A DNA stretch of 64,000 bases from Brachynemurus nebulosus (lineage: Eukaryota > Arthropoda > Insecta > Neuroptera > Myrmeleontidae): contig JAPWDM010000001.1 of assembly GCA_035578155.1 (NCBI GenBank), positions 14,548,725 to 14,612,724 of the forward strand, written 5' to 3'. Made by a program: the position numbers and the translations under genes. This document shows, one piece after another, positions 15,530-50,433 of the stretch. The notes beneath the pieces are model-generated. The model made no database searches and was not told the origin of the DNA. It worked only from the letters and a program-made list of their open reading frames with translations. Each line of letters starts with the position of its first letter. Position 1 is the first letter of the stretch.

Positions 15530-16762
15530 TTACAAAGTTTCGATGCCTGATAGCTCTGAATCAGATGAATCAGACGAATCATCATCGGAATTTTCACTTA
15601 CGTGAATTATTATTTCTTCTATTGAATCTTCCAACGACACTTCTCTACTCCGGAATTCTTCTTCGATTCTTTTCGAATGTTAGCATCTAGCTTTCCATTC
15701 CTCCGAAATAAATTGTGTGAAAAATTCGTCACACAGTCTTTCGACATCTGTTATTTTAAAACTGACGTTGCGTTGGCTGATATATTGCTTCATGCTAACC
15801 CAAACCCTTTCTATGGGATTTAAATCAGGGTGGTACGGAGGAAGCCGCAAAACTTCATGCTCATAAAGATTAAACATTTTGTCAATTTCGTACGTTTGAA
15901 ACCGTGGTTTGTAACTTTTTATAATACCATACAGTTCGGTTTTTGTCATGCTGTCTAAATAAGAAATATTTTTTGTCGTAACCACGTTTTCATGTCTTCT
16001 TTTCTAGTTATCGTAGTCGGATATTTTTCAGCCAGTTTGTTATGATAAGGCGCATTGTCTAAAACGATGACGCTTTTCGGTTGTAAATTGGGGATTAGTT
16101 TATCTTGAAGCCATTTTTTGTAATTTTCAAAATTCATCTCTTGATGATAATCTCCTGAATTCGAAGAAGATCTCCAACGTAAGTATGCATTTGGCACAAA
16201 ACCATTTTCACCACCAGCATTTACAATTATTAATCTTTCTCCTTTCCCAATGGGTTTATGCAGTCCTTTATTGCTATTATCATCCCAACTTTTTTCATTC
16301 GTGTGGGAAGAATGTATATAAGTTTCGTCCATATAAATTATGGGCCTGTCCTGCTCTCTAAACCTTTTAATATTTTTTAAAAAGTTGGAACGTTTATCAC
16401 ATATGTCATGCCGTTCTATCAAAAGTTTTCTGTTTGTTTTTGTCTTGCGCCATCGAAAGCCTGTCTTCCTCAAACTTTCGATGGAACCATTATATCCTAT
16501 AGCTTCAGAAAATTTTTTGTGATTCCCCGGCATGGTAGGAATTCTGTTTTCAGTTAAATAAAAGTCATGAATTGTCTGTCCTTCTTAACACATCCTCATC
16601 AAAACTATCCAATTCTGTTTTAGGTTTTTGTCTACATCTTTTTTTTTGAACTTTTAAGGGAATTACTCGCCCCTTCTTCAATGTTAATTCCTTCCTCCTT
16701 TATTCGTCGGATAGTCCTGATCAAAACTCCCGTTGCTGCAGCTACACGTTCTTGCACTTAGT
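15530..16762 (-). pseudogene. Broken IS630/Tc1-like DDE transposase
   Basis: Would catalyse cut-and-paste transposition in the nucleus. Minus-strand reading from about 16762 gives a helix-turn-helix-like start (ERVAAATGVLIRTIRRIKEEG). The DDE core follows at 16533-15955: first Asp in IIYMDETYIHS, second Asp in VIVLDNAPYHN. A second frame at 15985-15680 carries the catalytic Glu in PPYHPDLNPIERVW. An acidic C-terminal tail ending GIETL* lies at 15530. Breaks: frameshifts upstream of 16533, a small deletion after SLRKT, a 1-nt shift in the A-run near 15965-15975, and an in-frame TAA at about 15680. The spacing from the second Asp to the Glu is roughly 80 residues, longer than in classic Tc1 or mariner. 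Family assignment (DDE_3-like) is from motifs only. Confidence 0.8.
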
Positions 16763-19805: not shown

Positions 19806-22800
19806 ATGAGTAATTTTCCGGAAGAAACATTTTTGTGGTTGTTTTTCGTATTTAAATATGATGATCATAAAATGTGGGTGAAATTACCGGAGCTATGTCT
19901 GTATGAAGATTTTGTTAATAAAGGTGTTATAAATTCTTTTTGTGATTTTTACAAATATTATTCGAATTTAATGAAATTGTGGTGATCATTTATTTTAGCT
20001 TGTGAATTATTTCCGAATCTAACCGAGAATGAGTTTTTCTTTACGGACGAACGTGATGTAATATTGGATTCGGATATTTTAGCAGATTACGTGCGACTAA
20101 GCGATCGAGGCGTTATTGTGAAAATTCATTGTCAAACAGTTGTAGAATTTATAGACATTTGTAATAACAAAATTTCTTTTAAATACTGGGTGTATTCGCG
20201 TTGTCGCTACCGTAGCGAGGAGCGACGCTACTTTGCATTCGCATATTCGCAACCAATAGATTCCGGTGGTCACGAGAGCCATGTTTAAAAATATTTTGAT
20301 ATGACTAAGGCAATATGGCTCCCGTTGACACATAACCGTGCACATAACTTAAAAAAAATTTAAATTTTTCAAACTGTTTATGTTTTAATAATTTTTGTAT
20401 TATGCCACGTTAATTTTAATAATTCAAACATAAAATTTTTCTTCATTACATTAAAAATTGCAACCATTTTAAGAGATTGTGGAAAAAAAAATTTGAATGA
20501 CATTTGTATGCTATCCGAGCAACTATAGCGCGTATCCATGGGAGCAATGCTTATACTACGCGAACATGAATGCTACGTCGATCTGAAGTGATGCTCACGG
20601 AAGCGATGAAAGCCACAACGCGAATACGCCCCATTCGATAAATTTTTTGTTTTTAATATCTGACAAAATTACATTTTAATTTCTTATTACAGCAAAAGTA
20701 GTAGGAATATGGGGTTTTTGGAGCCTCCTTCCCTCCTGCCGACTTTTTGAGTGACCTCGGCAGGAGGCAAAACTACCGAGGCGGTTCTAGAAGCCTCCGG
20801 CGGTGGGTGGAGCAACACTTGGTCTCCAACCTAACGATATCTAGTGAAATTTTTTCTAACCTAACAGAACCCAACGGAACTTGACCCAACCTAACAGAAC
20901 CTAAGGAAATTTGGTGTAACCTAACAAATTTTTTTCTAACCTAAGAATTCCCTAATAGATGGCGCAGCCACCTTCGAGCCCTGTAAATTCCCTAATAGAT
21001 GGCGCAGCCACCTTCGAGCCTGTGAATTCGCTACTAGATGGCGCTCGTAGTCTGGATTCCTGTGTGTAAGTTTGAAAAATTGTCAACAGGTGGCGCAGCC
21101 ACCTTTGAATTCTGTAAATTCTAAGTTTTCATTACTAGATAGCGCTGCTAGTCTGGATAATAGTGATCCCTGTGTGTAAGTTTGAAAAATTGACATCGAA
21201 AGTCCTTTTTGATAGTTAAAAGAATGCGCTGCTGGTCTGAACCACCGCGAACTCTGTATATTCATAATTTTATATTTTTATCTGAAAACAGGTTTATACA
21301 GGTTTTCCTCTAAATAAAAACACTTTTTTTTTTTTTATTTTTAATTTTTAATTTTTATTTTTTTTATTAAATAAAAACACATTTTTTATTTTTAATTTTT
21401 TTAAATTTTTTTAATTTTTTCTTATTTTAATAAATTTATTTTAAAAGAAATATTTTACAGTAAAAATGTTTAAATGTTATTACAATAATATTTGTATATG
21501 GATATGACATTTTCCATGGCGCAAGTTGCTCCGGAATGATGGCCGCATCGAGGACTAGTGTATGTTGATGTTATGATTCTCAACTTGGGGCAAATTGTTA
21601 TTTCTTCAAAGTTCATAATGGGCGCTGACGGTAGTAGTCGTTTCAAATACCGCACTTTTTCTTCTCCTTTCGTATAAATGATTTGAGTTCCGTGTAGATT
21701 GTTTATTAAAATGTATTGTAGTTCCTCGTATTCAATATGTCCATCCATCCAGGAGAACCCATGATGCTTTTTCCGCAGCCAACGGGCGGTGCGTTGATCT
21801 TTTTCACTTAATCCGCAAAACGGTATTGGTGATTTGAATACATAATGTTGTAGTATATAATCTTCACCACAATTTTCTTCGGAAGAATCGAATTTCAACA
21901 CAGCCAATTCCTTTATGTAGAATTTCCCATTTGTTGAATTTGGAAATCCTTGAAAGTCAACAATTGCTGTGTCGGCCTTCATTGTGCGTTGTCTAGAGCG
22001 AAACTGACTGATTTATAGCTGGATTGCGATGCTTTTATATATATTTTGTAACAATATTCGTCAATGGATTATATTGAACCACTCGGTCATGTAGCAGAAG
22101 ACAGAATGCTGATGTATTCTCCGGCACCTCCTTCAACGTTTTAAATTCAATTCGAATATCCACTGGTCCACTTTTCAATGTTTCGTTTTGATGAGAACAA
22201 TCGATGAATATAATTGGCGCGATATTCTTGAATTGTGTTTTGCTTAAAAGCGGTTCATTCTTCTTACAATCATAATATGCTTGTTGAAATTTCGAATACA
22301 TGTGATATGCTACTGCATATCTATCATTACTGAAATCCAAATTCAAATCCATGTACGGGTATTTCGCAGAATTTAAATAAACTTTGACGTCTGAAAGTTC
22401 ACAGTGATCGAAAATACTGGAATCTTTATCTTTTTTATTTCGTCGATTCGTTTGTAGAGCGAATATAATGTAACGCGGTTTCTCCAGTTGAGTCGATGTT
22501 TTCACCGTCCAAATGTTTTGTCTCGCTGTTGGAATCGTTGGCTGTATATGCATATCCCATGATCGAAAAGCAATTGTAATATCTCGACTATTTTCCACAT
22601 ATTTCAACAACTTCAGTTTCTGTTCATCTGCAACCGTAACGTGCGGAACCATCCATTGAATTTTATGTATATGGAAAGTGACGTCATCCGTTAGTGATAT
22701 GACTGCATCGTGATCCGTCCGAGCTCGAGTCAGAATTAGTTGATGTTTCGCATTGATGATAACTTTCTTATTTCTTAATATTTTTAAAACTGAATATGTA

Positions 22801-25800
22801 ATATCAAGAATTTAAAACAGTTTTGAAACATTAATTTCTCCTCATAATATTTTTTTAGTCTTAAATTAATAGCACAATGTTCCATATATTTTAAGAAAAT
22901 TTTTCTTTTAATATTTTATAACTTATCTAAAAAATTTATAGCTATTTTTTATCCAAAAATTTATTACTTGCTATTGTTAAAAAATTAGTTAAATATATCT
23001 ATAGGTATTAAGTGACCCCTAGTTTTGTGAAAGACGGTAGTAAGAGCAATTCATCTTAAATACGAAATTATTTTATCAATGCTAAATAAGCGTTTTTTTT
23101 CTCATATTATCATACTCCAATATATTGTATATTATTATAATTTATAAAAATGTGTTTTATTTATTAAAAAATTTAGCAAAATTTTAAATAATATCACGTC
23201 AAAATAATATTCAGAAGTCAATAAAAGACAATAGCAGTAAATTTATTAAGATAACTATAAATAAATATTAATCTAATGTTGAAATATTTATTAACAAATA
23301 GTATTGCTTAGTAGAAAATTAGGTACCTATTGTTTTGTTTTCAAATTTACCTTTGTGCAATTAAAGAAAATTTTAGTAACTATCGATACCTATATAAAAC
23401 GATACCCATAAAAGACAAGCATGCTCTGATCTCAACAATTTTTTCCCATGTTAAATTTGTATGTTCTTACTTCGCTGAAACTTATTATGTTTATATATTC
23501 CCCTAATATTTTCTACCATAAACAATAGTTATAGCAAGCTAGGTAGGTATTGAATAAGTATTTTTTGTTTGTTAATTTATTGATGATAGAGAAAAAAAAT
23601 TTATGATTTTATAGACAGTGAAATACATTTAAACTATTTTTTTGCAGTTTAATTTTGTAAAAACACCTAAAAATTATCAGTCACAGACAAATATTTCTAA
23701 GCAAACGAATTGAAAATGTAGTTTTATATCATAAGAATAAATGCGTATATATAGGGTGGACAGTAAATAACTCTCATAATTTTTAAAGAGCGGATGAAAA
23801 CTTTAATTTTGGATTACGAAATTTTATTTTTTTTCCGGAGTTAAGCTGCATTCAATTAATTAACCCTTTCCTGCACAGCAGTTTTAGATCATTACTGTGC
23901 AAACGATACTTCAAATTAGCAAATCATTAATAACATGGGTAAATACTTATTAGCAAGAATTACATAGTTTACACATATGTTCTATCGCACCAGAATGTTA
24001 ATAGGACAATGCGATTTAATTGCCTATATTCAGGAGCAAGCAAAAACATTACCTATTTTAATAACTTAGAAAATACACATTACATAGTTCGTTGTAAGAA
24101 CAATCATTTCGGTGATCTTTTTTTTTTTTAACGAATTACTAAATTTGCTTAAGGACTATGGTATGTAAGAAATAACAACACTCACATAATTTTAAAATAA
24201 TTAACATATAGCTATTGGAAAAGTTACAAAGATTTTTTTAACAACTTATTAAATGCTGATAGCTTATTTTAATATCTCCTATAGGGCCTTAAGTATAACC
24301 CTTCACCCGAAATTTTTTCATCACCATCGTTGGCGACTGTATTCTCGTCATCATCAGCTTCTCCTTCGCTCGCAGTATCTTCGCTATCGCTAGTAGATGT
24401 TTTTTCATCATCATTGAATACATATTTTAACACTGGTTCAATAATATCATGCTTTTCCAATTCCCTGGTTATTGAGATAATCCGCTTTCCAATGTCACTT
24501 TCCTTTAAATTATTAAAATGGCTTCGTTTTTTCTCGTTTTCGATATAATCCGCGAAGCTGGGATTTATAATATGACTCCTTTCCATTAAATTGCACACAG
24601 TATTAACCATTTCTTCTCCAATTTGCGTCTGAGTCGCTAAACTTCTTAGTTCATCAACTAAATGGTTCGGGTCATCAAAATATTCTTCTCCATCAACAGG
24701 TTTCGAATGGCCATTATGAAGGTTAGTATTTTCATCATCATATTTGAAACGTTTAGCTTCTCCATTTATTGAATTAGATGTTGAAGGTTGGTCCTTTTCT
24801 TCCGAATTTTTATCTTCTTGTTCTTCATCCTTTGCGCATGCGTTCTGAAGCTCTTTGACCATTAATATGTCTAGAGCAGTTTGTAAGAGACCAGCTATCT
24901 TTGGAGTAAAACTTGTTTCTTTGTAGTTATCAGGCGATGGTAAATGCTTTTGTTCATCAGATCGATTATCTTCGACATTTACCGATTGTAGAATATTATG
25001 CGAGTTTTTTAAAGCGTGGAATTTACTTCTGATTGCTTCTGCTGCAGCCATCATACTTTCATCAAAAGTATTCAAGTTTCTTTTAGATAGATCTGTATCA
25101 TTTTCGTGTTGATTTTGAAATACTGGTGCTTTATCTTCCTTTTCTTCATTTCTTGCTTCAAAACTATATTCGGTTTCATTATCATCATTTTCATCATTAG
25201 ATTTTGACGATTCACTTTGTCTCCTGTTCTCCGCGCTGTTCACTTGTGTCCCATTATTTACCGTGGTATATTCAAACTGATTATTTGCGATCTGGTCATT
25301 ATTGTTTGTTTCATGTTCCTGAGTATGCACTCTTCTTTTCATATGACGTAAAAGAGAACTTCTCCGCGAAAATGTCTTGTCACAACGTATACAGTTAAAC
25401 ATTTTGATAGATGTGAAGAGTTCGATTTATAACATAACACTGATTAGTTTTTATATCGACATGATCTTATATAGTACAACCAGAGCAGAATTGACGTAAA
25501 GTAATGACACCAAAATGCACCAAAGGTGCACCAAATGACACCAAACTGCACCAAAGGTGCACCAAATGACACCAAACTTCACCAGTTTGGTGCAGTTTGG
25601 TGTCATTTGGTGCACCTTCGGTGCAGTTTGGTGTCATTTGGTGCACCTTTGGTGCATTTTGGTGTCATTTGGTGAAGTTTGGTGTCATTTGGTGCACCTT
25701 TGGTGCAGTTTGGTGTCATTTGGTGCAACTTTGGTGCAGTTTGGTGTCATTTGGTGCACCTTTGGTGCAGTTTGGTGTCATTTGGTGCACCTTTGGTGCA

Positions 25801-28800
25801 GTTTGGTGTCATTTGGTGCACCTTTGGTGCATTTTGGTGTCATTTGGTGCAGTTTGGTGTCATTTGGTGCACCTTTGGTGCAGTTTGGTGTCATTTGGTG
25901 CACCTTCGGTGCAGTTTGGTGTCATTTGGTGCACCTTTGGTGCATTTTGGTGTCATTTGGTGAAGTTTGGTGTCATTTGGTGCACCTTTGGTGCAGTTTG
26001 GTGTCATTTGGTGCAACTTTGGTGCAGTTTGGTGTCATTTGGTGCACCTTTGGTGCAGTTTGGTGTCATTTGGTGCACCTTTGGTGCAGTTTGGTGTCAT
26101 TTGGTGCACCTTTGGTGCATTTTGGTGTCATTTGGTGCAGTTTGGTGTCATTTGGTGCACCTTTGGTGCAGTTTGGTGTCATTTGGTGCACCTTCGGTGC
26201 AGTTTGGTGTCATTTGGTGCACCTTTGGTGCAGTTTGGTGTCATTTGGTGCAGTTTGGTGTCATTTGGTGCACCTTTGGTGCAGTTTGGTGTCATTTGGT
26301 GCACCTTTGGTGCATTTTGGTGTCATTACTTTACGTCAATTCTGCTCTGGTTGTACTATATAAGATCATGTCGATATAAAAACTAATCAGTGTTATGTTA
26401 TAAATCGAACTCTTCACATCTATCAAAATGTTTAACTGTATACGTTGTGACAAGACATTTTCGCGGAGAAGTTCTCTTTTACGTCATATGAAAAGAAGAG
26501 TGCATACTCAGGAACATGAAACAAACAATAATGACCAGATCGCAAATAATCAGTTTGAATATACCACGGTAAATAATGGGACACAAGTGAACAGCGCGGA
26601 GAACAGGAGACAAAGTGAATCGTCAAAATCTAATGATGAAAATGATGATAATGAAACCGAATATAGTTTTGAAGCAAGAAATGAAGAAAAGGAAGATAAA
26701 GCACCAGTATTTCAAAATCAACACGAAAATGATACAGATCTATCTAAAAGAAACTTGAATACTTTTGATGAAAGTATGATGGCTGCAGCAGAAGCAATCA
26801 GAAGTAAATTCCACGCTTTAAAAAACTCGCATAATATTCTACAATCGGTAAATGTCGAAGATAATCGATCTGATGAACAAAAGCATTTACCATCGCCTGA
26901 TAACTACAAAGAAACAAGTTTTACTCCAAAGATAGCTGGTCTCTTACAAACTGCTCTAGACATATTAATGGTCAAAGAGCTTCAGAACGCATGCGCAAAG
27001 GATGAAGAACAAGAAGATAAAAATTCGGAAGAAAAGGACCAACCTTCAACATCTAATTCAATAAATGGAGAAGCTAAACGTTTCAAATATGATGATGAAA
27101 ATACTAACCTTCATAATGGCCATTCGAAACCTGTTGATGGAGAAGAATATTTTGATGACTCGAACCATTTAGTTGATGAACTAAGAAGTTTAGCGACTCA
27201 GACGCAAATTGGAGAAGAAATGGTTAATACTGTGTGCAATTTAATGGAAAGGAGTCATATTATAAATCCCAGCTTCGCGGATTATATCGAAAACGAGAAA
27301 AAACGAAGCCATTTTAATAATTTAAAGGAAAGTGACATTGGAAAGCGGATTATCTCAATAACCAGGGAATTGGAAAAGCATGATATTATTGAACCAGTGT
27401 TAAAATATGTATTCAATGATGATGAAAAAACATCTACTAGCGATAGCGAAGATACTGCGAGCGAAGGAGAAGCTGATGATGACGAGAATACAGTCGCCAA
27501 CGATGGTGATGAAAAAATTTCGGGTGAAGGGTTATACTTAAGGCCCTATAGGAGATATTAAAATAAGCTATCAGCATTTAATAAGTTGTTAAAAAAATCT
27601 TTGTAACTTTTCCAATAGCTATATGTTAATTATTTTAAAATTATGTGAGTGTTGTTATTTCTTACATACCATAGTCCTTAAGCAAATTTAGTAATTCGTT
27701 AAAAAAAAAAAAAGATCACCGAAATGATTGTTCTTACAACGAACTATGTAATGTGTATTTTCTAAGTTATTAAAATAGGTAATGTTTTTGCTTGCTCCTG
27801 AATATAGGCAATTAAATCGCATTGTCCTATTAACATTCTGGTGCGATAGAACATATGTGTAAACTATGTAATTCTTGCTAATAAGTATTTACCCATGTTA
27901 TTAATGATTTGCTAATTTGAAGTATCGTTTGCACAGTAATGATCTAAAACTGCTGTGCAGGAAAGGGTTAATTAATTGAATGCAGCTTAACTCCGGAAAA
28001 AAAATAAAATTTCGTAATCCAAAATTAAAGTTTTCATCCGCTCTTTAAAAATTATGAGAGTTATTTACTGTCCACCCTATATATACGCATTTATTCTTAT
28101 GATATAAAACTACATTTTCAATTCGTTTGCTTAGAAATATTTGTCTGTGACTGATAATTTTTAGGTGTTTTTACAAAATTAAACTGCAAAAAAATAGTTT
28201 AAATGTATTTCACTGTCTATAAAATCATAAATTTTTTTTCTCTATCATCAATAAATTAACAAACAAAAAATACTTATTCAATACCTACCTAGCTTGCTAT
28301 AACTATTGTTTATGGTAGAAAATATTAGGGGAATATATAAACATAATAAGTTTCAGCGAAGTAAGAACATACAAATTTAACATGGGAAAAAATTGTTGAG
28401 ATCAGAGCATGCTTGTCTTTTATGGGTATCGTTTTATATAGGTATCGATAGTTACTAAAATTTTCTTTAATTGCACAAAGGTAAATTTGAAAACAAAACA
28501 ATAGGTACCTAATTTTCTACTAAGCAATACTATTTGTTAATAAATATTTCAACATTAGATTAATATTTATTTATAGTTATCTTAATAAATTTACTGCTAT
28601 TGTCTTTTATTGACTTCTGAATATTATTTTGACGTGATATTATTTAAAATTTTGCTAAATTTTTTAATAAATAAAACACATTTTTATAAATTATAATAAT
28701 ATACAATATATTGGAGTATGATAATATGAGAAAAAAAACGCTTATTTAGCATTGATAAAATAATTTCGTATTTAAGATGAATTGCTCTTACTACCGTCTT

Positions 28801-31800
28801 TCACAAAACTAGGGGTCACTTAATACCTATAGATATATTTAACTAATTTTTTAACAATAGCAAGTAATAAATTTTTGGATAAAAAATAGCTATAAATTTT
28901 TTAGATAAGTTATAAAATATTAAAAGAAAAATTTTCTTAAAATATATGGAACATTGTGCTATTAATTTAAGACTAAAAAAATATTATGAGGAGAAATTAA
29001 TGTTTCAAAACTGTTTTAAATTCTTGATATTACATATTCAGTTTTAAAAATATTAAGAAATAAGAAAGTTATCATCAATGCGAAACATCAACTAATTCTG
29101 ACTCGAGCTCGGACGGATCACGATGCAGTCATATCACTAACGGATGACGTCACTTTCCATATACATAAAATTCAATGGATGGTTCCGCACGTTACGGTTG
29201 CAGATGAACAGAAACTGAAGTTGTTGAAATATGTGGAAAATAGTCGAGATATTACAATTGCTTTTCGATCATGGGATATGCATATACAGCCAACGATTCC
29301 AACAGCGAGACAAAACATTTGGACGGTGAAAACATCGACTCAACTGGAGAAACCGCGTTACATTATATTCGCTCTACAAACGAATCGACGAAATAAAAAA
29401 GATAAAGATTCCAGTATTTTCGATCACTGTGAACTTTCAGACGTCAAAGTTTATTTAATTCTGCGAAATACCCGTACATGGATTTGAATTTGGATTTCAG
29501 TAATGATAGATATGCAGTAGCATATCACATGTATTCGAAATTTCAACAAGCATATTATGATTGTAAGAAGAATGAACCGCTTTTAAGCAAAACACAATTC
29601 AAGAATATCGCGCCAATTATATTCATCGATTGTTCTCATCAAAACGAAACATTGAAAAGTGGACCAGTGGATATTCGAATTGAATTTAAAACGTTGAAGG
29701 AGGTGCCGGAGAATACATCAGCATTCTGTCTTCTGCTACATGACCGAGTGGTTCAATATAATCCATTGACGAATATTGTTACAAAATATATATAAAAGCA
29801 TCGCAATCCAGCTATAAATCAGTCAGTTTCGCTCTAGACAACGCACAATGAAGGCCGACACAGCAATTGTTGACTTTCAAGGATTTCCAAATTCAACAAA
29901 TGGGAAATTCTACATAAAGGAATTGGCTGTGTTGAAATTCGATTCTTCCGAAGAAAATTGTGGTGAAGATTATATACTACAACATTATGTATTCAAATCA
30001 CCAATACCGTTTTGCGAATTAAGTGAAAAAGATCAACGCACCGCCCGTTGGCTGCGGAAAAAGCATCATGGGTTCTCCTGGATGGATGGACATATTGAAT
30101 ACGAGGAACTACAATACATTTTAATAAACAATCTACACGGAACTCAAATCATTTATACGAAAGGAGAAGAAAAAGTGCGGTATTTGAAACGACTACTACC
30201 GTCAGCGCCCATTATGAACTTTGAAGAAATAACAATTTGCCCCAAGTTGAGAATCATAACATCAACATACACTAGTCCTCGATGCGGCCATCATTCCGGA
30301 GCAACTTGCGCCATGGAAAATGTCATATCCATATACAAATATTATTGTAATAACATTTAAACATTTTTACTGTAAAATATTTCTTTTAAAATAAATTTAT
30401 TAAAATAAGAAAAAATTAAAAAAATTTAAAAAAATTAAAAATAAAAAATGTGTTTTTATTTAATAAAAAAAATAAAAATTAAAAATTAAAAATAAAAAAA
30501 AAAAAAGTGTTTTTATTTAGAGGAAAACCTGTATAAACCTGTTTTCAGATAAAAATATAAAATTATGAATATACAGAGTTCGCGGTGGTTCAGACCAGCA
30601 GCGCATTCTTTTAACTATCAAAAAGGACTTTCGATGTCAATTTTTCAAACTTACACACAGGGATCACTATTATCCAGACTAGCAGCGCTATCTAGTAATG
30701 AAAACTTAGAATTTACAGAATTCAAAGGTGGCTGCGCCACCTGTTGACAATTTTTCAAACTTACACACAGGAATCCAGACTACGAGCGCCATCTAGTAGC
30801 GAATTCACAGGCTCGAAGGTGGCTGCGCCATCTATTAGGGAATTTACAGGGCTCGAAGGTGGCTGCGCCATCTATTAGGGAATTCTTAGGTTAGAAAAAA
30901 ATTTGTTAGGTTACACCAAATTTCCTTAGGTTCTGTTAGGTTGGGTCAAGTTCCGTTGGGTTCTGTTAGGTTAGAAAAAATTTCACTAGATATCGTTAGG
31001 TTGGAGACCAAGTGTTGCTCCACCCACCGCCGGAGGCTTCTAGAACCGCCTCGGTAGTTTTGCCTCCTGCCGAGGTCACTCAAAAAGTCGGCAGGAGGGA
31101 AGGAGGCTCCAAAAACCCCATATTCCTACTACTAGCAAAATCTCCATAAACTTCATTATTAAGTACACCAACTTCTTCACGAGTGTTAACTCCATTAATA
31201 GACTGGTATAAGCCGCAGGCTACATTAACTGAACCTGATCCAAAAAGACGCCGTCTTGATGACCCGAGTTCGATTCTTTCTAAAGAAGTAAGTTTTATTA
31301 TGAAATTGATATTACTCTTGATGCCAAAGAAAATTCATTGTAGTTTTTACAAATTTAATAAGGTATTATTTATTATATTTGTAATAGTTAACCCATTAGT
31401 GACCACAATATTACACGTAATAGGTACTGTGCGAAAGTCAACTTTAAGGGCAGTTTTTTTTTAATTGAAGGCATTTAAATATATAAAATAACAACAGGAT
31501 AACGTTCTTTGAATTTTTCTCTCTCTTGCCGTGTAAAAGCTACTATTAAAAGGCTTTCAGTTGAACTTTTGTATTTAAAAAAGGGTCTGTAACGCGCAGT
31601 GCAGATTGTCACAAATTTTTTACATTGATTTCTAAATATATTAAATTTATATTTAAAAAACTGTGCCGGAGTGTTATTCAAATATGTGTTTAAAGCATTA
31701 AATATGAAATAATTGATAAAAATAAATATTAAAATAGAAATTTTCTGCAGAGAACTGACAGATATGTTTTAAAATTCGCTAGATTGTAACGTAATCAAAG

Positions 31801-49683: not shown

Positions 49684-50433
49684 AAGATCCCGCAGCTGAT
49701 TTCTGCAGGTATCTGTTTTTTTAATGAAACTTAATTTAAATGAATCCTTAATGGCAATGTAATACATTGCCCCCGGGTTTCCAGCTCTCAATCGGCCGCA
49801 ACCTTTAGGTTGCCAGGTGTTAACAGGTATATTGTTGTTAATAATTTGCGGTCACGTGTTTTTTGAGACAATTAGATACTAAATTAAAGTTTTATTTTTT
49901 CTGAACACGATAATACATGGTTGCCTGTGAAAAAATAGCTGCAAGTTATGGTTGCCATTACTTTTAATTAATTATTCTCTTATCACATCTCAGCTGCAAC
50001 TATTGAAAAAAAAATTATACATATTGATCAATCGAGACAATGAAATATGTATTACATTGTACATATGTAATAATATTTCATTGCATTGTTTGATCAATAC
50101 GTATAATTTTTTTTTCAATAGTTGCAGCTGAGATGTGATAAGAGAGTAATTAATTAAAAGTAATGGCAACCATAACTTGCAGCTATTTTTTCACAGGCAA
50201 CCATGTATTATCGTGTTCAGAAAAAATAAAACTTTAATTTGGTATCTAATTTTCTCAAAAAACACGTAACCGCAAATTATTAACAACAATATACCTGTTA
50301 GCACCTGGCAACCTAGAGGTTGCGGCCGATTGAGAGCTGGCAACCCGGGAGCAATGTATTACATTGCCATTAAGGATTCATTTAAATTACGTTTCATTAA
50401 AAAAACAGATACCTGCAGAAGCTGCGGGATCTT
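49684..50433. mobile_element. Foldback element, ~350-bp arms
   Basis: AAGATCCCGCAGCTGATTTC pairs with CTGCAGAAGCTGCGGGATCTT, and arms continue through GGTTGCCAGGTGTTAACAGG, CAGCTGCAACTATTG and TTGATCAAT to a short loop near 50058. Non-coding. Confidence 0.88.

Follow-up and report, generated by a model that had tools for sequence, protein, structure and literature searches.

The palindromic insertion and its genes

A 64,000-nt stretch of the genome of the antlion Brachynemurus nebulosus (Neuroptera; Myrmeleontidae; assembly GCA_035578155.1, contig JAPWDM010000001.1, positions 14,548,725 to 14,612,724), referred to here as the window, contains at positions 20697-31133 an insertion of 10,437 bp that is a near-perfect palindrome, built in part from the right end of a Polinton. 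An initial annotation, made from the sequence alone, had reported an exact 6-bp target-site duplication (TSD), AGT...ACT termini and mirrored arms of about 4.9 kb, and all of these features were confirmed. The TSD, AGCAAA, is exactly 6 bp long (6 bp equal, 7 bp unequal), and the termini read AGCAAA + AGTAGTAGG ... CCTACTACT + AGCAAA, with AGTAGTA tips. The 4888-bp arms align end to end over 4889 columns at 99.9% identity, with 3 mismatches and 2 gaps, and contain exact inverted blocks of 1757, 1680 and 1467 nt; a 4.9-kb inverted repeat at 99.9% identity far exceeds chance.

The interval between the arms is no spacer; a tandem array of a GGTGCA-type 31-mer fills it and itself lies within the palindrome. 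The turning point falls at about 25585-25587, where 82-nt stretches that are 98% complementary are separated by 3 nt, and a scan there found no exact match of at least 25 nt right at the turn. The central array (25503-26327) differs about ninefold in length between the two sides of the turn, an inequality that the rest of the arms does not share.

Three reading frames are present twice each and read outward, encoding a 170-aa protein, the C-terminal part of a capsid protein, and a 377-aa protein with a zinc finger (Table 1). The earlier description of three doubled, outward-reading genes holds for all three frames, with the correction that the capsid gene is only a fragment (206-449 of 449 residues), frameshifted in the right arm. 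The 170-aa protein had no match in Pfam, NCBIfam or PHROGs, and its structure model (mean predicted local distance difference test score, 36) was too poor for use. The capsid fragment matches positions 126-316 of the double-jelly-roll capsid protein family PF21738 (E 1.3e-78); a PDB search with it gave nothing usable, and the likeness of this region to other copies stops at about 22769. Pfam matches to the C2H2 finger of the 377-aa protein were weak and below cut-off, a PHROGs search returned one family of unknown function (E 6e-5), an NCBIfam search gave nothing, and the alignment with a 368-aa protein of ordinary Polintons is too weak (E 0.02) for the one to be called a form of the other. 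The zinc-finger gene also had no match across a comparison set of 58 non-palindrome loci, which total 181 kb and are pieces of elements rather than whole elements. Near its C-terminus the zinc-finger protein has the motif ISGEG, which we take to resemble the adenovirus protease site rule, and GLYL-PYRR occurs at or near the C-terminus of both this protein (24269-25402) and the ordinary Polinton PLA2 (L028:4023-4853).

Among the open reading frames (ORFs) of the insertion, those of at least 80 aa include no polymerase, integrase or ATPase frame, and no cysteine protease frame was found. In viral contigs searched for relatives, two stretches fitted a pattern and none was confirmed. The genes and other features are collected in Table 1.

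Table 1. Features of the palindromic insertion, in window coordinates.
Feature	Position	Strand	Basis or remark
Left TSD copy, AGCAAA	20691..20696	.	sequence
Palindrome left arm	20697..25584	+	end-to-end alignment with right arm
Terminal part of Polinton right end, mirrored in right arm	20697..21263	.	first 400 nt = C95 right end
170-aa ORF (180-aa open frame)	21470..21982	-	adjoins Polinton right tip
Capsid C-terminal fragment, PF21738	22035..22811	-	residues 206-449 of 449
AT-rich inner segment	22770..24268, mirror 27562-29060	.	
377-aa protein, one N-terminal C2H2 zinc finger	24269..25402	-	
Central array, short side, 82 nt	25503..25584	-	
Central array, long side, about 740 nt	25585..26327	+	
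Palindrome right arm	26246..31133	-	end-to-end alignment with left arm
377-aa zinc-finger protein, second copy	26428..27561	+	
Capsid fragment, mirror copy	29020..29795	+	frameshift-split near 29480
170-aa ORF, second copy	29848..30360	+	
Right TSD copy, AGCAAA	31134..31139	.	sequence

Ordinary Polintons and further palindromes in the same genome

The assembly of this one species (960 Mb, 138 contigs) was searched once for copies, with arm nt 1-2001 as the query. Only the best 40 of 3126 candidates were scored, which makes all copy counts lower bounds, and a query taken from the window's outer arm biases the search towards copies that resemble that arm. These 40 matches represent 31 elements, 9 with two inverted matches and 22 with one, comprising eight palindromes, one odd Polinton with a duplicated right end (C45) and 22 ordinary-looking copies. 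Of the single-match copies, 19 of 19 checked are collinear with a Polinton through a 1.5-kb piece that runs from the PLA2 gene into the ATPase gene, their far ends lying outside that piece. Three ordinary copies were read at length: C95, C116 and C84:11.04M, the last without its far end.

A full Polinton with tips matching those of the window, which the initial annotation had proposed looking for, does exist. The C95 element (C95:54352115-54373807) is an end-to-end Polinton of 21,693 bp with the TSD GAAAAT, its right end is 100% identical to the terminal 400 nt of the window element, and its left terminal inverted repeat (TIR) is 99.5% identical to the window's over 562 nt. A second end-to-end Polinton (C116:16187662-16204426) is flanked by the TSD TTTTTA, and its TIRs, about 700 nt long, are 94.6% identical. 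Polintons, also called Mavericks, have AGT ends, and the window element resembles them in these ends, in its 6-bp TSD, TIRs and right-end genes, and in the 400-nt tips identical to those of C95; it differs in having no polymerase, integrase, ATPase or protease frame, and in being nearly all inverted repeat, where the TIRs of C116 extend for about 0.7 kb.

From its right tip, the ordinary Polinton sequence L028 encodes the 180-aa frame, capsid (PF21738, E 1.1e-120), a 247-aa protein, a protease-like ORF and PLA2 (E 1.2e-14), and on the opposite strand an ATPase of Pox_A32 type (E 2.9e-7), a 368-aa protein, a 158-aa protein and an integrase (rve, E 1.5e-12, with a chromodomain match of 7e-4 that is below cut-off). 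The 247-aa protein is without a Pfam match and is named by its position, which is that of the minor capsid protein, and the protease-like ORF matches Peptidase_C48 below cut-off (E 0.0023). The full 449-residue capsid is present in 3 of 3 ordinary copies examined. Further on, C95 (L029) has a 1378-aa ORF with DANNLYG and YMDTDSF motifs, which we take to be PolB by its motifs. Phage endonuclease VII cleaves branched DNA, and a weak endonuclease VII-like stretch lies in the polymerase-like ORF (L030:6097-9192, L029:2900-7033; Pfam E 2e-4 and 6e-4, below cut-off; PHROG 423, E 4e-6), where it could bear on the handling of hairpins. In C116 the 247-aa gene holds a reverse-transcriptase-like ORF, and a second Polinton family in the genome is suggested by a frame outside that Polinton (L030:260-691) that shares about 32% identity with the 170-aa protein.

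The palindromes are the window copy, C136, C17, C58, C84:19.6M, and three on C1, namely C1a (57.0 Mb; C1:57022706-57032448), C1b (158.95 Mb) and C1c (11.37 Mb). All eight have an exact 6-bp TSD, again with 6 bp equal and 7 unequal in the seven others (the TSD of C136 lies in TTA repeats and that of C1a in TA repeats, so that these two are compatible with the call and not unique), and no copy with different termini or a different TSD length was found among them. The seven others have arms of 3.9-5.1 kb with 0-4 mismatches and 0-3 gap openings and are 9.7-10.4 kb in total length, except for C1c at 12.2 kb; arm-to-arm identity is 99.6-99.96% across all eight. The middle of C1c holds an unrelated 631-aa reverse-transcriptase-like ORF (L021:4002-5897), judged from its sequence to be presumably of Penelope type, which was presumably inserted after the palindrome had formed. 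The full 449-residue capsid is present in six of the seven, and four palindromes, C136, C58, C84 and C1b, have all of the 180-aa, capsid, 247-aa and protease-like frames open almost from end to end in both arms. If the arms are refreshed from ordinary copies, these open frames need not mean selection on the palindrome.

Six of the seven other palindromes depart from collinearity with ordinary copies at one and the same base, L028:4316, inside the PLA2 gene, and C1a departs at L028:3756. The junction is followed by arrays of GGTGT and GGGAGTGACTC type, common sequence of about 0.5 kb, and a loop, which measures 95-213 nt in the six copies where it is readable. The common sequence, or shared centre, is present in all seven, with 91.7-97.4% identity between copies (511-nt reference; 351-401 nt in C1b) and 100% identity, gaps aside, from arm to arm in the six copies that can be read on both sides; it had no match in any of the 58 non-palindrome loci. 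In each of three copies tested (C17, C1a and C84) the loop lines up collinearly with the stretch of Polinton TIR that lies about 167-342 positions from the tip, the best pieces being 75-96% identical, and 0 of 50 mononucleotide shuffles of one C17 loop piece matched one TIR. Such a loop fits an inverted dimer that was joined via an end whose tip may later have been lost. The shifted axis of C1b was considered as proof of a new fold-back and rejected; loss of the old axis by deletion explains it equally well.

These insertions with a common private sequence agree with the proposal that the element is a non-autonomous, satellite-like Polinton derivative, as do the Polintons with matching tips, the seven further palindromes and the lack of polymerase, integrase and ATPase among the window ORFs. 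The description of a compact lineage stands for the centre, shared by seven palindromes, and has to be qualified for the arms, which follow ordinary Polintons. The window copy has much less in common with this group. Arm nt 1-2073 are Polinton right end of the C95 kind, 99.8% identical in the outer genes, and the inner part (22770-25502) matched the 58 non-palindrome loci over only a 57-nt stretch (79%, E 7e-7) in six of them. What the inner part has in common with the other palindromes is the type of array, a 33-nt piece resembling their centre (24007-24039), and 148 nt from the 3' end of the zinc-finger gene (24189-24336) that also occur as a fragment in C1a (77%, E 4e-28). The window copy is a variant with a zinc-finger gene in its arms and a shortened capsid gene, and we read it either as a second palindrome type that shares the stock of the others or as a separate fold-back.

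The odd element C45 (C45:224000-250299; L025, L066, L026), presumably one element, has the ordinary gene order through the polymerase ORF, followed by an inverted right end that replaces the left end. This duplicated right end, which carries the capsid module, is joined at about L028:4989, and the two arms are about 98% alike and about 10 kb apart; a TIR search did not find the left TIR and found the right one in part. If C45 is one element, it would apparently be an older, separate fold-back, and such events would recur in this genome.

Outer arms and centre have discordant histories

A maximum likelihood tree of the outer arms (arm nt 568-2073, 40 rows) placed the two arms of each palindrome as a supported pair in the window copy, C58, C84, C136 and C17. 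The arms of C1a and C1b are of zero length within a small fork alongside ordinary copies, and in C1c the right arm groups with an ordinary copy and the left arm does not. For most palindromes the nearest relatives are ordinary Polintons, pairing the window with C95, C1a with C1:16.4M and C58 with C41:8.0M, and C17 and C136 fall in a small group with C1:24.6M and C41:9.3M. The change count and the approximately unbiased (AU) tests used one row per element, eight palindromes and 22 ordinary copies, with C45 left out; the palindromic and ordinary classes were fixed before the tree was made, and the tests were run after it had been seen. On this tree palindromy requires eight changes for eight palindromes, which is the maximum possible. 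A single clade of all eight was rejected (p-AU 5.4e-10), as was one of the seven with the common centre (p-AU 7.4e-96). Since the AU test presupposes that no recombination has affected the tree, we take these values as a gauge of discordance.

Over the terminal 400 nt, six of the eight palindromes are at least 98.9% identical to some ordinary copy (C58 over nt 28-400 only), and some palindromes are just 77-78% like one another. Between C17 and C136, identity is 99.9% in the outer genes and 99.3-99.7% in the TIR, but 92.4% in the centre.

The count of states private to one palindrome took 10 of the 22 ordinary copies as the reference and covered two segments, one with 8 palindromes and 26 rows and one with 7 palindromes and 24 rows. 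There were 33 states unique to one palindrome and yet present in both its arms, against 7 arm-to-arm differences. In the outer gene region (about 1.4 kb), both arms of five of the eight palindromes lie 0-2 sites away from their closest match among the 10 ordinary copies, and in the second gene segment three of the seven are at 1 site each. Lesions are mirrored as well, namely the broken 247-aa frame of C17, the protease deletion of C1c and the truncated capsid of the window copy. Because private states and lesions appear in both arms, both arms of a copy come from one source; this could be passing from arm to arm or a single donor outside the sampled set, and the counts fit both.

Origin of the palindromes

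We consider it probable, at roughly 0.64, that the window element is a Polinton satellite of the snap-back (copy-back) kind that became integrated, with arms repeatedly replaced from a helper and integration by the helper's integrase. Right-end sequence at both termini, arms that are nearly identical in all eight copies, and the excess of private states found in both arms argue for this reading, and we favour an origin from an inverted-dimer replication intermediate. The genome contains end-to-end Polintons whose ends match those of the palindromes, and these are candidate helpers. Polinton PolB is described as protein-primed (PMC4028283). During protein-primed strand-displacement replication a nascent or displaced strand would fold back, yielding a symmetrical genome whose two termini are both right ends and which lacks the genes of the other end. 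A molecule of this kind would retain two origins and two integrase sites, and polymerase, integrase and ATPase would come from the helper. Seven palindromes would derive from a common stock, because all seven share the private centre and six share the junction base. Occasional template switching onto a helper's end may then replace one arm, the other arm probably being recopied from it by self-primed snap-back or hairpin repair. The insertions carry a 6-bp duplication as in C95 and C116, and the helper integrase would have made them.

The main rival explanation, which we regard as unlikely, is chromosomal gene conversion, in which one palindromic lineage was inserted at several sites and then underwent arm-to-arm conversion, together with ectopic conversion with ordinary Polintons, without calling for any special form of replication. 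A large palindrome with a short loop readily undergoes conversion, and the process could yield the discordant arms, the contrast between outer genes and centre in C17 and C136, and the mirrored states. However, several insertions look young, with five of eight at 0-2 sites from ordinary copies in the outer region, and each locus would have had only a short period for both kinds of conversion, an argument limited by the next segment, where only three of seven are that close and four are at 8-15 sites. The arms of C45, about 2% apart, indicate that inverted arms are not always kept alike, but this point is weak because those arms are about 10 kb apart. A separate fold-back of each palindrome from a different ordinary Polinton, with the centre picked up each time, appears improbable. 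It would account for outer arms that match different ordinary Polintons, and C45 provides an example of a fold-back with its own junction at about L028:4989, as the window copy and C1a each have theirs; set against this are the one junction base common to six palindromes, the centre common to seven, and the absence of that centre from all 58 non-palindrome loci, though these are pieces. For the six one-junction palindromes we disfavour separate fold-backs.

Two further explanations have hardly any weight. Palindromic chimeras occur in long-read libraries, and an assembly artefact of that sort was considered and rejected, given exact 6-bp TSDs at all eight loci, symmetry that ends at the element tips, and flanks that differ. 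It is equally implausible that the palindrome is a complete, independent element that itself encodes replication proteins: a zinc-finger gene without a match in the non-palindrome loci would suit such an element, but its ORFs of at least 80 aa include no polymerase, integrase or ATPase, and its capsid gene is a fragment.

Several observations weigh against the snap-back satellite reading. The palindromic form, the TSDs, the common centre, the discordant outer arms and the single source of both arms are seen in the assembly, whereas the extrachromosomal molecule and its replication steps are our inference, and copying from arm to arm could take place inside the chromosome. The mirrored states and lesions could come from a donor Polinton outside the sampled set. 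The centre matches no ordinary Polinton piece save for the TIR-like stretch of the loop, which leaves the formation of the first palindrome to inference. A working helper would be needed, and both candidates are damaged, with the C95 integrase split over two frames and the polymerase ORF of C116 broken, and neither the 1378-aa ORF nor its C116 relative has a polymerase match in Pfam, NCBIfam, PHROGs or PDB. Unresolved forks may inflate the count of eight changes. The tip of C1c matches its best ordinary copy at 97.8%, that of C84 is without a close match among the 22 ordinary copies (384 of 400 nt equal, with insertions, 85.9%), and in the second gene segment four of seven palindromes are 8-15 sites from the nearest of the 10 ordinary copies.

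Defective genomes of adenovirus, a virus with protein-primed linear DNA, are a close parallel; Daniell reportedly described them in 1976 from incomplete particles, with one end at both termini, and they are said to have been non-integrated and to have formed no lineage. Foldback elements (FB, Galileo) resemble the window element in having very long inverted repeats that contain tandem repeats, and they differ from it in having no viral capsid genes and in transposases and TSD lengths other than those of Polintons. Adeno-associated virus (AAV) primes its replication by a hairpin, whereas a Polinton uses a protein primer. The nearest parallel is to the snapback genomes (SBG) of AAV, the 5'-SBG and 3'-SBG, which are sub-genomes of a DNA virus described as defective interfering and satellite particles; the 3'-SBG contains the capsid region and raises Cap levels (PMC8235507), and the other palindromes reported here carry the capsid module. 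The AAV genomes are described in particles (PMC8235507), whereas the palindromes here are chromosomal, at many sites, with TSDs. Teratorn differs from the window element in combining a herpesvirus with piggyBac, in its length of 41-182 kb and in having a unique region besides its repeats (PMC6431247). Palindromic Polintons were absent from open-access titles and abstract openings among the matches listed in a literature search, subscription papers and preprints being mostly outside that search.

Linear, protein-primed, virus-like replication of animal Polintons has been argued mostly from gene content. Symmetrical defective genomes whose ends resemble those of various ordinary copies, and whose private states occupy both arms, would be an expected by-product of protein-primed linear replication, and this set of palindromes makes such replication testable. 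The palindromes further suggest that a DNA virus can have defective or satellite genomes that are inherited as mobile elements. More tentatively, and at odds somewhat short of even, we propose a capsid-module satellite lineage living beside an animal Polinton, defined by its hairpin centre alone and taking both ends at once from whichever helper is replicating; this would be an inherited equivalent of the AAV 3' snapback genome, and if so the chromosomes would archive a record of helper-satellite dynamics, in which the satellite would either provide the helper with doses of capsid protein or interfere with it.

Elsewhere in the window, a 209-aa open frame at 15955-16584 has the look of a DDE transposase fragment, a judgement made from the sequence without any search, and at 49701-50420 there is an inverted repeat with 348 nt per arm, 96% complementary, and 24 nt between the arms.

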